Positions 3,102-21,124 of a DNA stretch of 34,783 nt are shown piece after piece. The position numbers and the translations under genes are program-made. The notes under the pieces were generated by a model. It was not told the DNA's origin. It saw only the letters and a program-made list of their open reading frames with translations, and made no database searches. The DNA comes from Limisphaerales bacterium (GTDB taxonomy: Bacteria; Verrucomicrobiota; Verrucomicrobiia; Limisphaerales; UBA11358): the NCBI GenBank assembly GCA_003139955.1, contig PLHK01000130.1:1-34783 (forward strand). Reading direction: 5' to 3'. The number at the start of each line of letters is the position of its first letter. Positions within the stretch are counted from its first letter, which is position 1.

Positions 3102-3368
3102 TTACTTTTTGGCGGCGGTGGTTTTCTTGGCCGCGCCATTTTTTTTCTCGGCCACAGGCTTGGCGACATCAGGCTTGATTGCCTTCACAAGCACGGCCTT
3201 GTTCTTTTTGAGAAATTTTTCGATGTTCGTCTTGCTGCCGATGGAGTTGGAAATTCTGACGGCATTGTGCTTGCCGAGCTTGTAATGGACGAGGAGCTTG
3301 CCGACCATGTCCACCTGCAAATTGGTTTCCGCCATGCGCCAAACCTGGCCGTCAGCCAGTGGCTCCAT
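3102..3368 (-). CDS. Small protein with Lys/Ala-rich tail, unknown function
   Basis: About 88 residues. The core (residues ~10-60) is compact and includes VGKLLVHYKLGKHNAVRISN; the last 25 residues are a low-complexity basic tail (KPVAEKKNGAAKKTTAAKK) like those of histone-H1-like or ribosome-associated proteins. I do not recognise a named family. The start is uncertain: the frame is open back to a TTG at 3428, immediately after the pyc stop (TAATTG), with a GTG at 3401 and ATGs at 3368 and 3335. The ATG at 3368 is taken, giving MEPLADGQVWRMAE. It lies just downstream of pyc on the same strand and just upstream of a terminator, so it is probably the last gene of the pyc transcript. Confidence 0.65.
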   Translation of the reverse strand: MEPLADGQVWRMAETNLQVDMVGKLLVHYKLGKHNAVRISNSIGSKTNIEKFLKKNKAVLVKAIKPDVAKPVAEKKNGAAKKTTAAKK

Positions 3369-3428
3369 GGGCGCGCGCGGTGCGGATTTGGTCTTAATCA
3401 CAAGGCAGCTTGCAACTTTGGCGGCCAA

Positions 3429-6400
3429 TTAACCAGTCAAATCGCAAGGTAATTGAGCGACCGCGCGCAGCTTCAAGATCAAATCTTTACTCTCGACCGC
3501 CTCGCCGTTCGACACGCAAATTTCTTCCACCACGCCAGCGCACGGCGCATAAATCGTCGTCTGCATTTTCATTGCTTCGAGCGTCAGCAGCTTGTCGCCT
3601 TTCGCCACCTTCGCGCCGATGCTGACGGCGAGCGCGGTGACGAGACCGGGAATGGGCGCACCAACTTCGCTCGGCTTGGTGGAATCAGCCTTCAAACGCG
3701 CTTTCACGGTCGGCTTGGCGGAACAATCCACGATGCCAAGCTGCCGCGTCATGCCGTTCAATTCGAAATTCACCGCGCGTTTGCCCTCGGCATCCACCGC
3801 ACCGATGTTGACGAGGCGGATGAACAAAGTTTTGCCCGGCTCGATCTCGACGGAAATTTCCTGGCCGGCTTTCATGCCGTAAAAAAACGCCGGCGTCGGC
3901 AGCACAGACGAATCGCCGTTAGCCGCGACTTTCTTTGCGAACTCCGCGAACACTTCCGGATACATGACGTGGCTGAAAACATCATCCAGCGTCGCGTCGC
4001 GCTTGAGTTTCGTTGAAAGTTCTTCCTGAATTTTTTTGAAATTGAGCGGCTTCAACGCCGCACCGGGGCGGCCTTTCAGCGGCTTGCGTTTACCCAGCAC
4101 GACGCTCTGCAATTTTTTCGGCCAGCCGCCGAGCGGTTGACCGAGTCCACCCGCGAGCATATCAATCACCGATTCGGGAAACGGCGTGCTGCCTGGTTCA
4201 AGATTTAAAACATCAGCGGGCTTGATGCCGCGCGTGATAAGAAACATCGTCATGTCGCCGACGACCTTGCTGCTCGGCGTGACTTTCACGATGTCGCCGA
4301 AAAGTTGATTTACCTCCGCGTAAGTGCGCGCGATTTCCGGCCAGCGATGCGACAAGCCCATGCCGGCCGCCTGTTCTTTCAAGTTGGTAAATTGTCCGCC
4401 CGGCATCTCGTGCAGATAAACTTCCGCGCTGCCGGCTTTCGGCGACGTGTCGAACGGCGCGTAAAACGTGCGGACATGCTCCCAATAATCGGCAAATTCG
4501 TTGAGCGCGGACAAATCCAATCCCGTGTCACGCTTGGTGAATTGCAGCGCGGCGACGACGGAATTCAAATTCGGCTGGCTCGTCGAACCGCTCATCGAAG
4601 CGATGGCCAAATCGACAATGTCCACACCCGCTTTCGCAGCGGATAAAACACTCGCCGCTGAAATTCCGCTCGTGTCGTGCGTGTGAAAATGGATTGGAAT
4701 TCCAATCTCTTCTTTCAGCGCCTTCACCAAAACCTGCGCGGCAGTCGGACGGCAAAGTCCTGCCATGTCTTTGATCGCGAGAATGTGTGCGCCCATTTTC
4801 TCCAAATCCTTCGCGAGCTTCACATAATATTTCAGCGAGTATTTGTCGCGCGCCGGATCCAAAATATTTCCCGTGTAACAAATCGCCGCCTCGCAAATGC
4901 CGTGCGTTTCGTTGACGGCATTCATCGCGACTTCGAGGTTTGGCAGATAATTCAGCGAATCAAACACGCGAAAAATATCCATGCCCGCCGCCGCCGCGTG
5001 CTTCACAAAACCGGCGACGACGTTGTCCGGATAATTGGAATAGCCCACCGCGTTCGAGCCGCGGAAGAGCATCTGAAAACAAATGTTGGGAATGCGCTCG
5101 CGCAACGCGCGCAGCCGCAGCCACGGGTCTTCGTGCAAAAAACGCAAAGCCGTGTCAAACGTTGCGCCGCCCCACATTTCCAGCGAGTAAAGATTCGGCG
5201 TGCGCCGCGCGACGGCATCGGCTACCGCGAGCATGTCGTAAGTGCGCAGGCGCGTCGCAAAGAGCGATTGATGCGCGTCGCGGAACGTCGTGTCGGTGAC
5301 GAGCAACGGTTTTTGCTTGAGCGTCCACTCGGCAAATTTTTTCGGCCCAAGTTCAAGCAGCAACTGCCGCGTGCCTTTCGGCGGCGTTTGCTTCTGGTCA
5401 TAAGCCGGCACGCGTGCAGGCAGCAGTATTTCCTTCGGCACAAAATTTTTCGCCGGCGGATTGCCATTCACTGTCACGTCGCCGAGGAAGCTCAAAAGTT
5501 TTGTAGCGCGGTCGCGTTTGGTTTTGAGTTTGAAAAGTTCCGGCGTCGTGTCAATGAACGTGGTCGTCGCGCGCCCGCTGCTGAATTCCTCGTTGTGGAT
5601 GACGTTTTCGAGAAACGGAATGTTCGTCTTCACACCGCGAATACGAAACTCACGCAGCGCGCGGTCCATGCGTTGCAGCGCCGCCGCGAATGTCGGCGCG
5701 GACGCTGTGAGTTTCACCAGCAGCGAATCATAAAACGGCGTGATGACCGCGCCGCCGTAACCCATGCCGCCGTCGAGCCGCACGCCAAATCCGCCCGCGC
5801 TGCGATACGTCAAAATGCGGCCGTAGTCCGGTTGAAATTTATTTTCCGGGTCTTCGGTTGTGATGCGGCATTGCACGGCGAAACCGTTGCGCGGAATTTT
5901 TTCCTGCGCGGGAATTCCCACCTCGACGTCGTGCATTTTTTTGCCGTCGGCGATCAAAATTTGCGAGCGCACAAAGTCAATTCCCGTGATGACTTCTGTG
6001 ACCGTGTGCTCGACCTGAATGCGCGGATTCATCTCGATGAAGAACCATTCTTTCGTGTCCTGGTCGTAAAGAAATTCCACCGTGCCGGCGTTGTCGTATT
6101 TGATTTCCGTGCAAAGTTTCGCCGCCGCCTCGCACAATTCTTTGCGCACGCGCTCGTCCAAGCTCACGCTCGGCGCAATTTCAATTACCTTTTGGTGACG
6201 TCGCTGCACCGAGCAATCGCGTTCGTGCAAGTGAACGACGTTGCCGTGCTGGTCGCCGAGAATCTGCACCTCGATATGTTTCGCGCGCGGAATGTAGCGT
6301 TCGAGAAAAACGGCGGGATTGCCAAACGCGCGATCCGCTTCACCCTGCGCCTCGTCGAGCAATGAAGCCAAATCCGCCGGCTTCGTGACGACACGCATTC

Positions 6401-13870: not shown

Positions 13871-13899
13871 TTGACAGTTGCCCACACTGGCATCAATCT
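13871..13899 (+). promoter_or_regulatory. Candidate sigma-70-type promoter for the riboswitch operon
   Basis: A perfect -35 box TTGACA (13871-13876) is followed after 17 bases by CAATCT (13894-13899), a poor -10 that keeps the key A and final T. Transcription would start about 15-20 bases before the SAM aptamer, which is the expected distance. The weak -10 keeps confidence modest. Confidence 0.45.
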
Positions 13900-13920
13900 A
13901 TCCGCATCCGTTGATTTGAC

Positions 13921-14040
13921 GGACTCATAACGAGTGGTCGAGGGACTGGCCCGGCGACACCACGGCAACCGATTGAACTGGTTTTCAATGTCAGGTGCCA
14001 ATTCCAGCTCAAGCACCATTAGCTTGGGAAAAATGAGAAG
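13921..14040 (+). promoter_or_regulatory. SAM-I (S-box) riboswitch aptamer
   Basis: The S-box core is readable base by base. P1 pairs CTCAT (13924-13928) with ATGAG (14033-14037). The conserved junction and P2 strand contain GAGGGACTGGCCC, then GGCAACC; P3 is GATTGAA with TTCAAT; AGGTGCCAATTCCAGC matches the conserved block after P3; P4 pairs CAAGC with GCTTG; and GGGAAAAATGAGAAG closes the aptamer. SAM binding stabilises P1. The 3' P1 strand plus the next bases (GAGAAG) can instead pair with CTTCTC at 14062-14067, which is the 5' arm of the terminator. That gives an OFF switch: high SAM, termination. Confidence 0.93.
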
Positions 14041-14057
14041 AGCACAACCGTTTTGTC

Positions 14058-14088
14058 GCCCCTTCTCGTCATGAGTCGGGGCTTTTTT
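14058..14088 (+). terminator. Riboswitch expression-platform terminator
   Basis: GCCCC (14058-14062) pairs with GGGGC (14078-14082), with an inner CTC/GAG pair and a five-base loop, followed by six T. Its 3' arm repeats the ATGAG of P1 (14071-14075), so it and P1 compete for the same CTTCTC strand. It regulates the thrC operon by attenuation. Confidence 0.9.
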
Positions 14089-14106
14089 GTTGCCTTAAAA
14101 TCATCG

Positions 14107-14168
14107 GTAGCAGCGAAAGTGAGTTCGCTCTGACTGAAAATAATGAGCCGACTCACGTCGGCTGCTAC
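14107..14168. repeat. Complex inverted repeat (three-hairpin palindrome)
   Basis: Outer arms GTAGCAGC (14107-14114) and GCTGCTAC (14161-14168) enclose two inner hairpins, GCGAA/TTCGC and GCCGAC/GTCGGC. The element lies between the terminator and the thrC start, so it is transcribed as the 5' leader only when the riboswitch is ON. Shape and place suggest a dispersed REP/BIME-like element. Confidence 0.7.
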
Positions 14169-14188
14169 GATTGAAGAAATAAAAATTT

Positions 14189-15448
14189 ATGAGTGAAAAG
14201 CATCACGGTTTCATGAAGACACTCAAGTGCCGCGAATGCGCGCGCGAATATCCGCTCGAAGCGACGCACGTCTGCGAGTTCGACTTCGGCCCGCTCGAAG
14301 TCGCCTACGATTACGAGCGCATCAAAAAATCGCTCACGCGCGAAATCATCCAGTCGCGTCCGAAAACGATGTGGCGTTACCGCGAGCTTTTGCCCATCGC
14401 AGGCGAGCCGACCGTCGGCCCACTCGTCGGTTTCACGCCACTCGTCAAAGCGAACCGCCTCGCAAAAGCTCTTGGCATCCGCGAACTCTGGGTCAAGAAC
14501 GACGCCGTGAATTATCCGACGCTCTCGTTCAAGGATCGTGTCGTCAGCGTCGCGTTGAGCCGCGCGAAGGAATTAGGTTTTGAAACTGTCGCGTGCGCGT
14601 CCACGGGAAATTTGGCGAACTCCGTCGCCGCCAACGCCGCGAGCGCGGGATTAAAATCCTACGTTTTCATTCCGTCCGATTTGGAGCAGGGGAAAATTTT
14701 GAACTCGCTCATCTACGGCGCAAACGTCATCTGCATCAAAGGCCATTACGACGAGGTGAACCGCCTCTGCGCCGAGATCGCCGGCAAATTCGGCTGGGCA
14801 TTTGTGAACGTGAACATGAGGCCGTATTACGCTGAAGGCTCGAAGAGCATGGCGTATGAAATCGCCGAGCAACTCGGCTGGCGGCTGCCGCAGCACACGA
14901 TCGTGCCGATGGCGTCCGGCTCGTTGCTGACGAAAATCCACAAAGGCTACCAGGAATTTGTAAAGCTCGGGCTCGTCGCGAATTCCGAGACGCACATCCA
15001 CGGCGCGCAGGCCACGGGCTGTTCGCCGATTTCCGTCGCGCAAAAGGCCGGACTCGATTTCTTCAAGCCGGTGAAGCCCGACACGATTGCGAAATCGCTC
15101 GCCATCGGCACGCCGGCGGACGGTTTTTACGCGCTCAAAGTGATGCGCGAAACCAACGCCGCGGCTGACGACGTGACCGACGACGAAATCCGCGACGCGA
15201 TCAAGCTGCTCGCCGAGACGGAAGGCATTTTTGCCGAGACCGCCGGCGGCGTGACCGTGGGCGTGGCGAAGAAACTCATTGCGTCCGGGAAAATCCCGCG
15301 CGATTCTTCCGCCGTCATCTGCGTCACTGGCAACGGATTGAAGACGCTCGACGCCGTGCAAGGTCATGTCGGCAAACCGCGCGAAATCAAGCCGAGCCTG
15401 CGCGAATTCGAGGCGCTGCTGGCGCATGAAGAAAAAGTGAATGCGTAA
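14189..15448 (+). CDS. thrC: Threonine synthase-like PLP enzyme under SAM riboswitch
   Basis: A 419-residue fold-type II PLP enzyme. An N-terminal zinc-ribbon remnant holds Cys14, Cys17 and Cys29, but the fourth position is Asp32. Next come the threonine synthase blocks GFTPLVKANRLAKALG, VNYPTLSFKDRVVSVAL with PLP-Lys115, ACASTGNLANSVAA, PMASGSLLTKIH, HIHGAQATGCSPI and ETAGGVTVGVAKKL. The family converts O-phosphohomoserine to threonine. Here it sits behind a SAM OFF switch and ahead of a CysO-like sulfur carrier and a NIL protein, so homocysteine synthesis from O-phosphohomoserine is a real alternative (inference). The first ATG, 14189, is taken; 14213 is possible. The next gene begins directly at the stop (TAAATG). 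Confidence 0.9.
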   Translation: MSEKHHGFMKTLKCRECAREYPLEATHVCEFDFGPLEVAYDYERIKKSLTREIIQSRPKTMWRYRELLPIAGEPTVGPLVGFTPLVKANRLAKALGIRELWVKNDAVNYPTLSFKDRVVSVALSRAKELGFETVACASTGNLANSVAANAASAGLKSYVFIPSDLEQGKILNSLIYGANVICIKGHYDEVNRLCAEIAGKFGWAFVNVNMRPYYAEGSKSMAYEIAEQLGWRLPQHTIVPMASGSLLTKIHKGYQEFVKLGLVANSETHIHGAQATGCSPISVAQKAGLDFFKPVKPDTIAKSLAIGTPADGFYALKVMRETNAAADDVTDDEIRDAIKLLAETEGIFAETAGGVTVGVAKKLIASGKIPRDSSAVICVTGNGLKTLDAVQGHVGKPREIKPSLREFEALLAHEEKVNA

Positions 15449-15955
15449 ATGAATACTCAAAAGCCAAAACGTAAAATGCCGTGGTGGGCAATTTTGCTGT
15501 GCATTGTTTTTGCACCAATTCTTTTGGTCGCAATTCCAACTTTGTTGATAATTGTGCTGGCACTTTATGTCGTCAGCACAATTTGTCTGCACATTCTTAT
15601 TTGGTCGCTGTGGTATTCTCGCGGGTGTGACATTTTATTCGTCTATTCGGATAGTCCGATTTGGCATGATTACGTCGAGCAACATATTATTTCCAAACTC
15701 GGCAAGCGCGCGGTTATTCTTAACTGGTCGCAACGCAAACAATGGCGTTTTTCAATTGCTAGGATGGCTTTTTATCATTTCGGCGGTTATCGCCAATTCA
15801 ATCCGCTTGGCATTGTGTTTCGTCCATTTCATCGCACGCGAACTTTTAGATTTTGGCAGCCATTCCGAGATTTCAAACACGGAAATTCAGAAGCTCTTCA
15901 AAAAATGGAAAATGAATTTTTTGAATTGATTAGAATTCAAAGACACGAATCGTAA
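15449..15955 (+). CDS. AT-rich membrane protein of unknown function inside the thrC operon
   Basis: A 168-residue protein I do not recognise. Residues 13-54 are strongly hydrophobic (two adjacent membrane helices, WAILLCIVFAPILLVAIP and LLIIVLALYVVSTICL). The cytosolic part contains DILFVYSDSPIWHDYVEQHI, then RAVILNWSQRKQW, FGGYRQFNPLGIVFRPF and FRFWQPFRDFKHG, which read like a conserved soluble domain. The ATG touches the thrC stop. Base composition is clearly more AT-rich than the flanking genes (many TTT, ATT, AAT codons), so it may have arrived later than the rest of the operon. Role in sulfur or amino-acid metabolism is only suggested by position. Confidence 0.78.
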   Translation: MNTQKPKRKMPWWAILLCIVFAPILLVAIPTLLIIVLALYVVSTICLHILIWSLWYSRGCDILFVYSDSPIWHDYVEQHIISKLGKRAVILNWSQRKQWRFSIARMAFYHFGGYRQFNPLGIVFRPFHRTRTFRFWQPFRDFKHGNSEALQKMENEFFELIRIQRHES

Positions 15956-15970
15956 AATTATTTTTAATTT

Positions 15971-16246
15971 ATGCCAAAAAAAGTCCGCATCCCCACGCCG
16001 CTCCGCAAGTTGACCAACAACGAGGAGCTGGTCGAAATCAACGCCGCCACCATCGGCGAGGCGCTCGTCGAATTGCAGACGCGCTTCCCCGGCATCCAGG
16101 AACGCCTCGTGGATGAACAAGGCGAGGTGCGCCGCTTCGTCAACGTCTATGTCAACGAGGAGGACATCCGCTTCCTCAAAAACCGCGCGACGCCGCTCAA
16201 AGACGGCGACGAGATCAGCATCATCCCCGCCATCGCCGGCGGCTAG
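15971..16246 (+). CDS. MoaD/ThiS-family sulfur-carrier protein, CysO-like
   Basis: A 91-residue beta-grasp protein. It begins VRIPTPLRKLTN, continues with TIGEALVELQTRFPGIQERL and RRFVNVYVNEEDIRFL, and ends DEISIIPAIAGG. The C-terminal Gly-Gly is the residue pair adenylated and then converted to a thiocarboxylate. From memory of family members, the pattern PTxLR...ERL...RFVNxYVNxEDxRF...PAxAGG is nearer to Mycobacterium CysO than to molybdopterin MoaD. CysO donates sulfide to the PLP enzyme CysM to make cysteine. Here the neighbouring PLP enzyme of the same fold is ThrC-like. No ThiF/MoeZ activator or JAMM (Mec-type) protease is in the window, so these must be elsewhere if the model holds. 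Confidence 0.9.
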   Translation: MPKKVRIPTPLRKLTNNEELVEINAATIGEALVELQTRFPGIQERLVDEQGEVRRFVNVYVNEEDIRFLKNRATPLKDGDEISIIPAIAGG

Positions 16247-16250
16247 AACC

Positions 16251-16345
16251 AATTCAAAATGAAAAATGCAAAATTAAAAATTGTCGGCAGGAAATATCCA
16301 GCCGTTGAATTCAATTTTACATTTTTAATTTTTAATTTTTAATTT
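16251..16345. repeat. AT-rich imperfect inverted repeat
   Basis: ATTCAAAATG...AAATTAAAAATT on the left and AATTTTTAATTTTTAATTTG...on the right are near reverse complements around a 30-base spacer. It fills the gap between the sulfur-carrier and NIL genes, where no promoter or terminator with a T tract is clear. Confidence 0.55.
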
Positions 16346-16352
16346 GAATCTT

Positions 16353-16640
16353 ATGGCCACGCCCAAGAAAAAAATTACGGCGACGAAACCTTCTTCGCCG
16401 ACGCAGCAACGTTTGTGGCTGATGTATCCGCCCAAGCTCATCAAGAAGCCGTTCATCTACGAAGTCGGCCACAAGTTCAAAGTTGTGACGAACATTCGCC
16501 AAGCCACGGTGACGGACGAGATTGGAATCGTCTGTTTAGAACTCGACGGCGCACACGGCGAAGTCGCCAAGGCAATCAAATGGCTGGAGAAGCAAGGCGT
16601 CAACGTGGAGCCGGTGGAAATCGGCATTGTCGCCGGTTGA
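16353..16640 (+). CDS. NIL-domain protein
   Basis: A 95-residue protein. After a basic N-terminus (MATPKKKITATKPS) comes a ferredoxin-like NIL domain: LWLMYPPKLIKKPFIYEV, then FKVVTNIRQATVTDEIGIVC, LELDGAHGEVAKAIKWLEKQ and VNVEPVEI. NIL domains are best known at the C-terminus of the methionine ABC-transport ATPase MetN, where they bind methionine and inhibit transport. A free NIL protein in a SAM-riboswitch operon supports a methionine link. The ATG at 16353 is used rather than a TTG at 16344. Sixteen bases after the stop is a terminator, so this is the operon's last gene. Confidence 0.87.
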   Translation: MATPKKKITATKPSSPTQQRLWLMYPPKLIKKPFIYEVGHKFKVVTNIRQATVTDEIGIVCLELDGAHGEVAKAIKWLEKQGVNVEPVEIGIVAG

Positions 16641-16658
16641 TAAATTTGTAAGGACAAG

Positions 16659-16687
16659 CGGCGCGGAATCAAATCCGCGCCGTTTTT
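16659..16687 (+). terminator. Rho-independent terminator of the thrC operon
   Basis: CGGCGCGGA (16659-16667) pairs with TCCGCGCCG (16674-16682), loop ATCAAA, followed by TTTTTATTTT. It closes the SAM-regulated operon. Confidence 0.9.
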
Positions 16688-18426: not shown

Positions 18427-18604
18427 TGCGCACGATGGCATATCTTTGGATTCTCATTGGATAAATGCGCCAGCCGCAGTCGTCACACTTGTTCAAAAAT
18501 AGTTGCGTTAAAAACTTTTTCTTGGACTTGCGCTCCGCAGTTCTGGGGGGTAGAACTTGGTTTGTGTACCCATTTTTGCCAACATTGATGTTTGTAGCCC
18601 TTCT

Positions 18605-21124
18605 ATGAAAATAACCTTATTGCTGTGCTTGACTCTGCTCGGTCTTGAAATCGCCACCGCGCAGCCGGATGCCAGCCAATTGCTGCAGGTGCACTACGAG
18701 TCGCTGGTTTCGCGGGCGGATTTGAATTACGACACTCCCGTCAAGCAAAGCGTAGAAGGCATGCCTATCGGCAACGGACGCATGGGCAGCCTGGTCTGGA
18801 CCACGCCGCAGGCTTTGCATTTTCAGATCAATCGGGTGGATCTATTTTGCGTGGGCAACAACAGTCGTAGTTTTCCCATGGGCAACAACGCATATTCGAG
18901 CGGCTGTGGCTATGTGGACATTGGCCTTGAAGGTTATGGGGATGAAATTTTCACTGGCAGCGCCTTCCGACAACATCTGTCGGTGTATGACGGCCTGACC
19001 ACAGTGGTGGGCAATGACGTCACCGCCCGAACACTGGCGTGGAATGACGGGGACGTGATTGCCGTTGAGTTGGACGATCAACGCGACCATCCATCCGCCA
19101 TCAACCTTGACCTGCGGATGCTGCGCTATGCCGTGGATTATATCGTGCAAGAAAATTACGTCTTGTTCAGCCATCACGCCACGCAGGTGCAAAACGGCGC
19201 GCACTCCGCGCAGTCGCGGCTGGAAATCCGCGATGGCCGGATTATTTTGGTGCAGGAGTTCCGGGAGGGAAAATTTTACAGTGCCTCGGCCGTGGCGATC
19301 GGGGTCGTCGGGCGGGAGAGCAAGCCCAGCTACTACAACGAAAGCACGGTGCGATTGTCCGTCGCACCGGGACAAGGCAAGTTCACCGCGCTGATTGCGA
19401 GCGCCGCCAGCTACAATCCCGGAGAAGACGTGGCGGGACTGGCATTGAAACAGTTGGTGGCCGCCCAAGCCAAACATTTTGACGAGTTGCTGGCCGACAA
19501 CCGCGCTTGGTGGAGCCAATACTGGCCGCAGTCCTTCGTGCATCTGCACAGCACCGATGGCGTGGCCGACAAAGTAGAGGAGAACTATACCTACTTTCTT
19601 TACATCATGGCCTCGTGTTCGCGCGGAACGTATATGCCACGTTTTGCCGGGATGCTGTGGGGCGCAAACGGCGACCTGCGCGAGTGGGGCTCGGAGTATT
19701 GGTGGCACAACCAGGAGACGTATTACGGCCTGCTGGAGCCAGCCAACCGTCCCGAATTGCTGGATCCATTATTTCTGACTTATGACCGGAACATGGCGTC
19801 GTTTGCCCGCGCCGCCCGCCAGCAATGGGGCAGCCAGGGAATTTGGATTCCCGAAACTTCCTATTTTGACGGACTGGAAAATTTGCCGGACGGCGTGGCC
19901 AAGGAAATGCGCCTGTTGTATCTGGCCCAAAAACCGTGGAAGAATCGTTCCGCCGAGTTCATGGATTTTGCCAGGGGCAAGAGCGGCATGGACAGCCGCT
20001 GGAATTGGTGGCTATTGCCCAGTGCCCGCGAGGTCAACCAAAACGGCGATCAAGGCCCCTTTTCCTGGACATCGCACATCATGTCCGCCACGGCCAAAAT
20101 CGCCTATGTTTATTGGCTCCACTACGCCTATTCGCTGGACGAAGACTGGCTGCGAACCAACGGCTATCCCGTGATCAAAGGCGCGGCCGAGTTTTACCGC
20201 AATTTCCCCAATCTCTACCTGGCCCGCGACGGCAAATATCATATCCGCTATGTGAACAATCATGAACGCGATTGGGGCACTTCGGACACGCCGGAGGAAC
20301 TCACGGCCATGCACGAGATTTTTCCACTGGCCATCCGGGCTTCCGAGATTCTGGGGGTAGACGCCAAATTGCGTCCGCGTTGGAAAAATGTGTTAGATAA
20401 TTTGACGCCAATTCCACCCGCGTTGGAACCAGCCGAGTATTACGACCAGTGCAACATCGGCACCGAAAATCTGGCCTTGCGCGCTAACATCATCCACGCC
20501 TTCAACCTGAAATACACCAACGCCATATCAGAAATGACCAACGGCAGCACTCTGTCGCGCCTTCCCGTCGCCGTCTGCAACCTCGGCTGGACGGATAAAG
20601 CGAAGCCCATGCTGGCGGCTTTGGCGGAACCTTACAAATCGGTCAAGCAACTGGATTACGGCACCAAAGGCGAATGGGACGTGGGAGTGATGCGCAACCG
20701 CTTGGCCTTGGACGAAGGCCCGGGGGCGATTGAATGTGAACGGCTCGGCATGTTGTCGCAGACCCTCCATCTGGCGTTGCTGCAAAGCGCACCGCCCTCG
20801 CCGGACAAGGAACCAGTCAACTACCTGTTCCCGGCTTGGCCGAAGGAATGGGATGCCCAATTCACGCTGGCGGCGCGCGACGCATTTATCATCAGCGCCT
20901 CCCAACAGAACGGCCAGATTGAGTTTGTGGAAATCTATTCCAAAAAAGGCGTTCCCTGTCGCGTGCACAATCCTTGGGACGAAACGCCGGTGACGCTCTA
21001 CCGCGATGGCAAAGAGGCGGAAACGATTTCCGGCCAACTTTTGGTAATTCCCACGGCGCCGGGCGAGATCGTGACCTTGGTTCCCAAAGGACAGCCGCTA
21101 CCGGAAAAAATGATTATCAAGTAA
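18605..21124 (+). CDS. Secreted GH95-like (alpha/alpha)6-barrel glycoside hydrolase
   Basis: An 839-residue exported protein: signal peptide MKITLLLCLTLLGLEIATAQ with probable cleavage after TAQ. The mature N-terminus carries PIGNGRMGSLVWTTPQALHF, the opening of GH95/GH65-clan beta-sandwich domains. A long middle part with FAGMLWGANGDLREWGSEYW, YPVIKGAAEFYRNF and TSDTPEELTAMHEIFPLAIR resembles the helical barrel of GH95 alpha-L-fucosidases, and the C-terminal part (SGQLLVIPTAPGEIVTL) is a beta domain. I cannot place the exact catalytic acids, so substrate (fucosides or another plant/algal sugar) is open. The ATG at 18605 starts the signal peptide; a frame to 18557 is rejected. It has no operon partners. 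Confidence 0.72.
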   Translation: MKITLLLCLTLLGLEIATAQPDASQLLQVHYESLVSRADLNYDTPVKQSVEGMPIGNGRMGSLVWTTPQALHFQINRVDLFCVGNNSRSFPMGNNAYSSGCGYVDIGLEGYGDEIFTGSAFRQHLSVYDGLTTVVGNDVTARTLAWNDGDVIAVELDDQRDHPSAINLDLRMLRYAVDYIVQENYVLFSHHATQVQNGAHSAQSRLEIRDGRIILVQEFREGKFYSASAVAIGVVGRESKPSYYNESTVRLSVAPGQGKFTALIASAASYNPGEDVAGLALKQLVAAQAKHFDELLADNRAWWSQYWPQSFVHLHSTDGVADKVEENYTYFLYIMASCSRGTYMPRFAGMLWGANGDLREWGSEYWWHNQETYYGLLEPANRPELLDPLFLTYDRNMASFARAARQQWGSQGIWIPETSYFDGLENLPDGVAKEMRLLYLAQKPWKNRSAEFMDFARGKSGMDSRWNWWLLPSAREVNQNGDQGPFSWTSHIMSATAKIAYVYWLHYAYSLDEDWLRTNGYPVIKGAAEFYRNFPNLYLARDGKYHIRYVNNHERDWGTSDTPEELTAMHEIFPLAIRASEILGVDAKLRPRWKNVLDNLTPIPPALEPAEYYDQCNIGTENLALRANIIHAFNLKYTNAISEMTNGSTLSRLPVAVCNLGWTDKAKPMLAALAEPYKSVKQLDYGTKGEWDVGVMRNRLALDEGPGAIECERLGMLSQTLHLALLQSAPPSPDKEPVNYLFPAWPKEWDAQFTLAARDAFIISASQQNGQIEFVEIYSKKGVPCRVHNPWDETPVTLYRDGKEAETISGQLLVIPTAPGEIVTLVPKGQPLPEKMIIK

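Follow-up and report, generated by a model that had tools for sequence, protein, structure and literature searches.

What does a relative of threonine synthase make when its gene is controlled by S-adenosylmethionine (SAM)? The question is raised by positions 13871–16687 of contig PLHK01000130.1 (assembly GCA_003139955.1), from a Limisphaerales bacterium of the Verrucomicrobiota, the 34,783 bp of which are here called the window. There, a SAM-I riboswitch (S-box) stands ahead of genes for a pyridoxal phosphate (PLP)-dependent enzyme resembling threonine synthase (ThrC), a beta-grasp sulfur carrier and a free NIL-domain protein (Table 1). The original prediction, made from the letters of this DNA, was that the enzyme combines O-phosphohomoserine with the thiocarboxylate of the carrier to form homocysteine, and the genomic checks described below came out in favour of that predicted activity. 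From sequence comparison, we conclude that the unit is very probably a homocysteine operon of the MetM/MetO type under SAM feedback. Gene content, co-occurrence, phylogeny and the riboswitch were observed directly.

In the proposed pathway, an E1 enzyme (with a rhodanese domain in both of the Verrucomicrobial E1s that were checked) would adenylate the C-terminal glycine of the carrier, and sulfur would be loaded to give a C-terminal thiocarboxylate. The ThrC-like enzyme would bind O-phosphohomoserine through PLP and eliminate phosphate, and the carrier thiocarboxylate would add where threonine synthase uses water, yielding homocysteine. Methionine synthase would methylate the homocysteine, and SAM would favour the riboswitch terminator. 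The substrate, the sulfur transfer and the role of the NIL protein are the parts of this scheme that we infer.

Methionine genes in the window's genome and phylum

The phylum sample consisted of 194 Verrucomicrobiota genomes, 10 with a ThrC-like orthologue (the window's own and nine at 62–73% identity, the remaining matches listed being at most 40% identical) and 184 without. The ten represent 6 genera and 5 families, and because of this kinship the counts are not independent. Cys/Met PLP enzymes (PF01053, E<=1e-30) were found in none of the ten and in 181 of the 184 others. MetX, scored by TIGR01392 at E<=1e-20 (the curated 500 bits were passed by no genome and no control), was likewise found in 0/10 and 173/184 genomes, and the three other genomes that lack PF01053 do have MetX. 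Both were therefore missing together in 10/10 and 0/184 genomes, respectively (Fisher 6e-17; genomes not independent). The absence of MetX, MetB and MetZ that had been suggested for such genomes was thus borne out in the phylum sample, where MetX, MetA and MetB/MetZ/MetY-type enzymes are all missing from the genomes with the ThrC-like enzyme.

In the window's genome (2.79 Mb, 91.7% complete), no full-length PF01053 enzyme was found; the best match, of 34.8 bits over positions 52–180 of 381, is by our reading a DegT-type protein. Searches of this genome also returned no MetX at E<=1e-20, no MetA and no DUF39 (PF01837), and a MetH-type gene with a 1275 aa frame is present. Its five PALP enzymes are two above the cysK cut-off, TrpB, an E. 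coli-type threonine synthase (TIGR00260 242.6 versus a cut-off of 167.1) and the ThrC-like enzyme. Nine of the 10 phylum genomes, the window's own included, have another intact ThrC that exceeds the TIGR00260 cut-off. A search for absence of a second thrC had been proposed, and we count its intact presence as agreeing with the idea. In the tenth genome (G121), two transposase-like open reading frames (ORFs) interrupt the second ThrC-type gene (L180 477–2723), and G121 also lacks a normal methionine pathway. No genome of the phylum sample was seen to combine a normal methionine pathway with this enzyme as its only ThrC.

ORFs near-identical to the transposase-like ORFs of G121 were also found upstream of its ThrC-like operon (L043, oriented 3286–4222). 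Two very reduced, single-contig genomes of 0.9 Mb (G057 and G036; loci L044 and L045) have kept the ThrC-like enzyme, the carrier, an E1 and a second ThrC, and neither an S-box or NIL gene at the locus nor a PF02574 methionine synthase in the genome was found in them.

No S-box other than the aptamer ahead of the operon was found in the window's genome. In the free-energy minimum, the 5' strand of this aptamer is paired with a segment of the terminator (fold z-score only −2.0), and as this pairing competes with the terminator hairpin the two folds are mutually exclusive, as had been proposed. The terminator-like hairpin that had been noticed after the NIL gene is also there; since 9 such sites were observed in the region and 5.3 expected, the terminator pattern alone is weak evidence. 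Control by an S-box recurs elsewhere, with one found ahead of the operon in 23 of the 34 loci examined for it (of a set of 90 described below, plus a locus from Nonomuraea).

Table 1. Features of the ThrC-like operon in the window
Feature	Position	Strand	Evidence
SAM-I (S-box) riboswitch aptamer	13922–14039	+	RF00162 73.8 bits, gathering cut-off 44.4
Riboswitch intrinsic terminator, T-tract hairpin	14058–14088	+	competes with pairing of 13922–13937 to 14061–14077
ThrC-like PLP enzyme, proposed MetM-type homocysteine synthase, 419 aa	14189–15448	+	PF00291 232.7 bits; TIGR00260 277.5 versus 167.1
Membrane-like ORF, 168 aa, local insertion	15449–15955	+	no family, no homologue
Beta-grasp sulfur carrier ending AIAGG, MetO/CysO-type, 91 aa	15971–16246	+	PF02597 66.1 bits
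Free NIL-domain protein, 95 aa, ATG start (in-frame TTG at 16344)	16353–16640	+	PF09383 41.7 bits
Terminator-like hairpin closing the unit	16656–16685	+	12 pairs, 8 GC

The enzyme and its neighbours in other phyla

A wider scan covered one genome per species (84,980 species) with two short patterns drawn from the orthologues, and yielded at least 578 stretches with a tblastn match at E<=1e-3, among which there may be ordinary ThrCs. The best 80 of these (60–94% identity), together with the window and the nine phylum orthologues, made up the set of 90 loci, and 50 of the 80 with the 10 phylum genomes made up a set of 60 genomes. According to record titles, the best 80 come from Verrucomicrobiota, Kiritimatiellota, Nitrospirota, Nitrospinota, Omnitrophota, Mariprofundus, Myxococcota, Thermodesulfobacteriota, Methylomirabilota, Planctomycetota, Armatimonadota and Elusimicrobiota. 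A carrier gene lies beside the enzyme gene in 86/90 loci, from about a dozen phyla. Three of the four loci without it have less than 2.4 kb of contig after the enzyme gene, and the fourth (L067) has 8 kb. A NIL gene is near in 66/90 loci; it is missing from 17 despite at least 2.5 kb of following sequence, and 7 end too early.

The full-length PF01053 enzyme is absent from 47 of the 60 genomes. MetA was above the cut-off in none of the 60, with one weak MetA-type match below it (G210). The activating E1 that had been anticipated is present in all 60, and E1 is common anyway (12/14 controls). In Nitrospirota, one locus (L109) has the order homoserine dehydrogenase, TusA, E1, ThrC-like enzyme, carrier, NIL, ThrC, and another (L106) has ThrC-like enzyme, carrier, NIL, ThrC, proposed homoserine kinase, aspartokinase, where the proposed kinase exceeds the cut-offs of both TIGR02535 ('proposed homoserine kinase') and a phosphoglycerate mutase model. 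A Nitrospira-type locus (L094) has the order ThiS-like, cysteine synthase, E1, ThrC-like enzyme, carrier, NIL, second E1, JAMM. Enzymes that make O-phosphohomoserine and enzymes that use it are thus encoded beside genes of sulfur relay.

The best-scoring families for the window's enzyme are threonine synthases, with the TIGR00260 cut-off exceeded (Table 1) and none of the 25 best models being for cysteine synthase. All 60 ThrC-like sequences nevertheless form one clade apart from the ThrC sequences, on a long branch (Shimodaira–Hasegawa-like approximate likelihood ratio test, SH-aLRT, 100), in a quick tree that carries a warning that long branches meet. The role of the substrate loop in ThrC is familiar, and here the loop is changed. 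It typically reads NxNxRP[YF]Y.[ED]GSK in the ThrC-like enzymes and NSxNPxRx[ED]GQK in the adjoining ThrCs, and none of the ThrC-like sequences has the ordinary form. Arg211 and [ED]G[SA]K are present in 60/60, with RP in 59 and RT in 1. As part of this loop was one of the two patterns by which 50 of the 60 were collected, only the 10 phylum sequences and that from Nonomuraea are unselected for it, and these have the changed loop too. After MA, the ThrC-like enzymes have [SG]GSL and the ThrCs GNAGN. A strict filter for one-residue sites diagnostic of ThrC-like enzymes versus ThrCs left only three, because the ThrC set is mixed.

A structural model of the window's enzyme (predicted local distance difference test score 92.5) has mostly class I threonine synthases as its best PDB matches (Z 43.6 to 37.7), the top one being from Arabidopsis; CapA2 of Alistipes is also among the best (Z 38.7). 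The modelled fit to class I threonine synthases is as expected for an enzyme that would share the O-phosphohomoserine half-reaction.

The 168 aa ORF between the enzyme and carrier genes has no family match in Pfam or NCBIfam and no homologue across the other 89 loci (best match 26 residues, E 0.8), and the enzyme–carrier gap of five close relatives holds other small ORFs. The gap therefore seems to be an insertion site, and we take the 168 aa ORF to be a local insertion, not a conserved part. Among the genes originally listed, the ThrC-type enzyme, the carrier ending AIAGG and the NIL protein were recovered by Pfam and TIGR00260, and the membrane protein was rejected as a component of the system on the lack of homologues in the 89 related loci. 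The gap ORFs of relatives are unrelated, some being toxin–antitoxin-like by eye (L051 6199–6456, L052 2823–3497, L054 9327–9749). In some Verrucomicrobial loci, a second, diverged carrier gene, whose product also ends in GG, lies between the enzyme and the main carrier (L058 8030–8305, L062 9128–9592, L069 9263–9547). Downstream of the operon, positions 18557–21124 of the window encode a protein that resembles glycoside hydrolase family 95 and contains a DUF5703 stretch.

Carrier tails and the NIL protein

A profile of 8 carriers found M. tuberculosis CysO (3dwg_C, 97.8 bits) as the closest solved structure. Where residues follow the GG of the carrier (1 to 82), JAMM at >=50 bits was found in 26/26 genomes; where the carrier ends in GG, it was not found in 24/31. 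At this threshold, JAMM is present in 34/60 genomes (the family cut-off is passed in 36 and E<=0.001 in 42). The association of tail and JAMM has a Fisher p of 8.5e-10, from a test that dropped L067, L083, L114 and L128, in which no carrier passed the filter; L114 was a filter miss, with one residue after the carrier GG and JAMM in the genome. As JAMM changes only twice on the tree, this value overstates the association, and an independent-pairs test was without power. We therefore rejected the association as independent evidence, since a single loss in Verrucomicrobiae accounts for most of it on the tree. The idea that the system requires JAMM was also rejected for the phylum, as JAMM was not found in 9/10 phylum genomes. 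These sequence patterns suggest that the task of JAMM is to trim the carrier and that product release does not depend on it; in the CysO system, release is the work of Mec+. A JAMM protease had been anticipated along with the activator; none was found in the window's genome at E<=0.001, which fits a carrier already ending in GG, and product release there is probably independent of JAMM. In one Methylomirabilota locus, a protein encoded ahead of the ThrC-like operon (L119 3043–4134) has its carrier domain, which contains an internal GG, joined directly to an E1 (ThiF-like) domain.

A profile of 25 NIL proteins matched the C2/NIL domain of the E. coli methionine importer MetN (3dhx, E 5e-10). 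The Asn of the tNiR motif is Asn in 58/66 NIL proteins, Ser in 6 and Asp in 2, and aligns with MetN Asn295 (Ala in the 6cvl chain), a residue reportedly required for feedback by methionine on this importer. Met301 of MetN is not conserved, Val or Ile taking its place in 64/66, and there is no conserved Cys (31/66 have any Cys). No match to the NIL protein was found in a plasmid collection. Six loci encode carrier and NIL as a single protein, in which AIAGG is followed within a few residues by the NIL domain; in a model of one such fusion, two domains are folded and the GG linker is disordered. The free NIL protein probably serves as a partner subunit or as one that senses methionine. More tentatively, it may be a dedicated third MetM/MetO component, a free copy of the domain with which MetN binds methionine, that responds to methionine by slowing carrier loading or the synthase, with the carrier–GG–NIL fusions of some lineages being cut by JAMM in the manner of ubiquitin fusions; we lean against this fuller version.

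Rival readings and known systems

Several observations count against a homocysteine operon. A full-length Cys/Met PLP enzyme is also present in 13/60 of the genomes with the ThrC-like enzyme, and exclusivity is therefore strict only in the phylum sample. PF02574 methionine synthase was not found in 16/60 (MetE and core types were not searched for), the S-box was not found in 11 of the 34 loci, and the window's genome yields only partial matches to E1 (C143, C23 and, at a contig edge, C120). The changed loop could mean another substrate. In G121, the ThrC-like enzyme might also have to serve threonine, unless a ThrC of another type was missed. In vitro, the Microcystis relative formed threonine and alpha-ketobutyrate, and the authors of that work doubt that it fully functions as a MetM in vivo (PMC12172450).

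One rival is that the enzyme is a second threonine synthase of the ordinary kind, that its neighbour stands beside it by chance or for regulation, and that SAM tunes the threonine/methionine branch. The enzyme's TIGR00260 score, the Arabidopsis enzyme as best structural match (Z 43.6), the in vitro threonine synthase activity described in part of PMC12172450 for a cyanobacterial relative and the interrupted ThrC of G121 would all fit. We nevertheless consider this unlikely, as another intact ThrC is present in 9/10 phylum genomes, the carrier has been kept in 86/90 loci, the homocysteine-forming enzymes are absent and switching off threonine synthesis by SAM is control in the wrong sense. The position of the carrier gene after the enzyme gene in 86/90 loci, the presence of JAMM wherever the carrier GG is covered and the MetO reported with MetM in Streptomyces in passages of PMC12172450 make it very unlikely that homocysteine is formed from O-phosphohomoserine and free sulfide with the carrier serving another pathway, even though free sulfide is probably available in the window's genome, given its two cysteine synthases above the cysK cut-off. 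Those same two genes, and the separate ThiS-like and cysteine synthase genes adjoining the unit in L094, also speak against another sulfur amino acid as product, such as cysteine from O-phosphoserine as in CysM/CysO. That alternative has the carrier's closeness to CysO among solved structures and the shared PLP fold type II in its favour, but S-box control and the missing MetX and PF01053 point to methionine, and we regard it as highly improbable.

The MetM/MetO-type reading has a published counterpart. Thiocarboxylated MetO is said to be the sulfur donor in the system of Hasebe et al. 2024, with metO reportedly directly after metM in S. albulus. A later account credits Hasebe et al. with finding MetM, a homocysteine synthase of Streptomyces that also has cyanobacterial homologues; it describes MetM as a ThrC relative that converts O-phosphohomoserine to homocysteine, places a SAM riboswitch upstream of S. 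albulus metM and notes that the gene adjoining Microcystis thrC resembles the sulfur-carrier gene metO (PMC12172450). Nonomuraea NZ_LT559118 (L171), used as a proxy for S. albulus, has an S-box, the enzyme (56.6% identical, same loop) and a carrier ending AVAGG, in that order, and its enzyme joins the ThrC-like clade (SH-aLRT 100 versus ThrC sequences; long branch, quick tree). Thus, the original prediction is right in kind and already published in kind, and the mechanism is not new in kind. The present loci are like S. albulus, known here by description (PMC12172450, in part), in having a ThrC homologue, a sulfur carrier and an upstream SAM riboswitch. They differ in that a NIL gene usually follows and is fused to the carrier gene in six, whereas no NIL was found in the 13 kb examined of the Nonomuraea locus.

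The Wolinella succinogenes HcyS/HcyD system of Krishnamoorthy and Begley 2011 reportedly also uses a carrier thiocarboxylate as the sulfur donor for homocysteine and trims the carrier tail, and its enzyme is said to be of the Cys/Met PLP family. The enzyme here is instead a ThrC relative, and JAMM is usually missing where the carrier ends in GG. M. tuberculosis CysM/CysO/Mec+ likewise pairs a PLP fold-II enzyme with a CysO-type carrier, but the enzyme subfamily, which is not CysM-type, and the proposed substrate are different, and no JAMM was found in the window's genome. In the DUF39 route, parts of the literature place NIL and ferredoxin domains beside a homocysteine-forming protein (MA1821/MA1822; Desulfovibrio; PMC5764234). 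We rejected this route here, as DUF39 was found in 2/60 genomes and not in the window's own; in addition, the NIL proteins here are 80–95 aa long with no ferredoxin part. Passages of the same paper list homocysteine routes as unsolved in Aquifex, Pyrolobus and Acidimicrobium (PMC5764234). Passages of Iyer et al. 2006 describe carrier/E1/JAB operons with cysteine synthase, and 'threonine synthase' is absent from the main text (PMC1779556). A literature search, in which most matches were not examined in full, found no paper describing the system other than PMC12172450. What is new, as far as could be checked, is the NIL partner, its fusion to the carrier, the pattern of carrier tails and JAMM, and a candidate to fill the homocysteine gap of Methylacidiphilum.

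That gap is documented by a curated metabolic model of Methylacidiphilum fumariolicum, which found no genomic evidence for homocysteine synthesis (PMC12341988). The operon names genes for it, as the relative Methylacidimicrobium tartarophylax (L086) has the enzyme, carrier and NIL genes together; the enzyme of G008 groups with Methylacidimicrobium in the tree. Methionine genes were reported missing from the nematode symbiont Xiphinematobacter in passages of two studies (PMC7857533, PMC4607532), and the enzyme and carrier are present in the two 0.9 Mb genomes, which by their size look Xiphinematobacter-like. The route described in Streptomyces would be extended to Verrucomicrobiota, Nitrospirota, Omnitrophota, Mariprofundus, Myxococcota, Thermodesulfobacteriota, Planctomycetota and others; as it passes TIGR00260, the enzyme would go by the name of threonine synthase in these groups. 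The operon also points to a NIL partner with a testable role and, if that partner does sense methionine, feedback would act at two levels, with SAM on the RNA and methionine on the protein.

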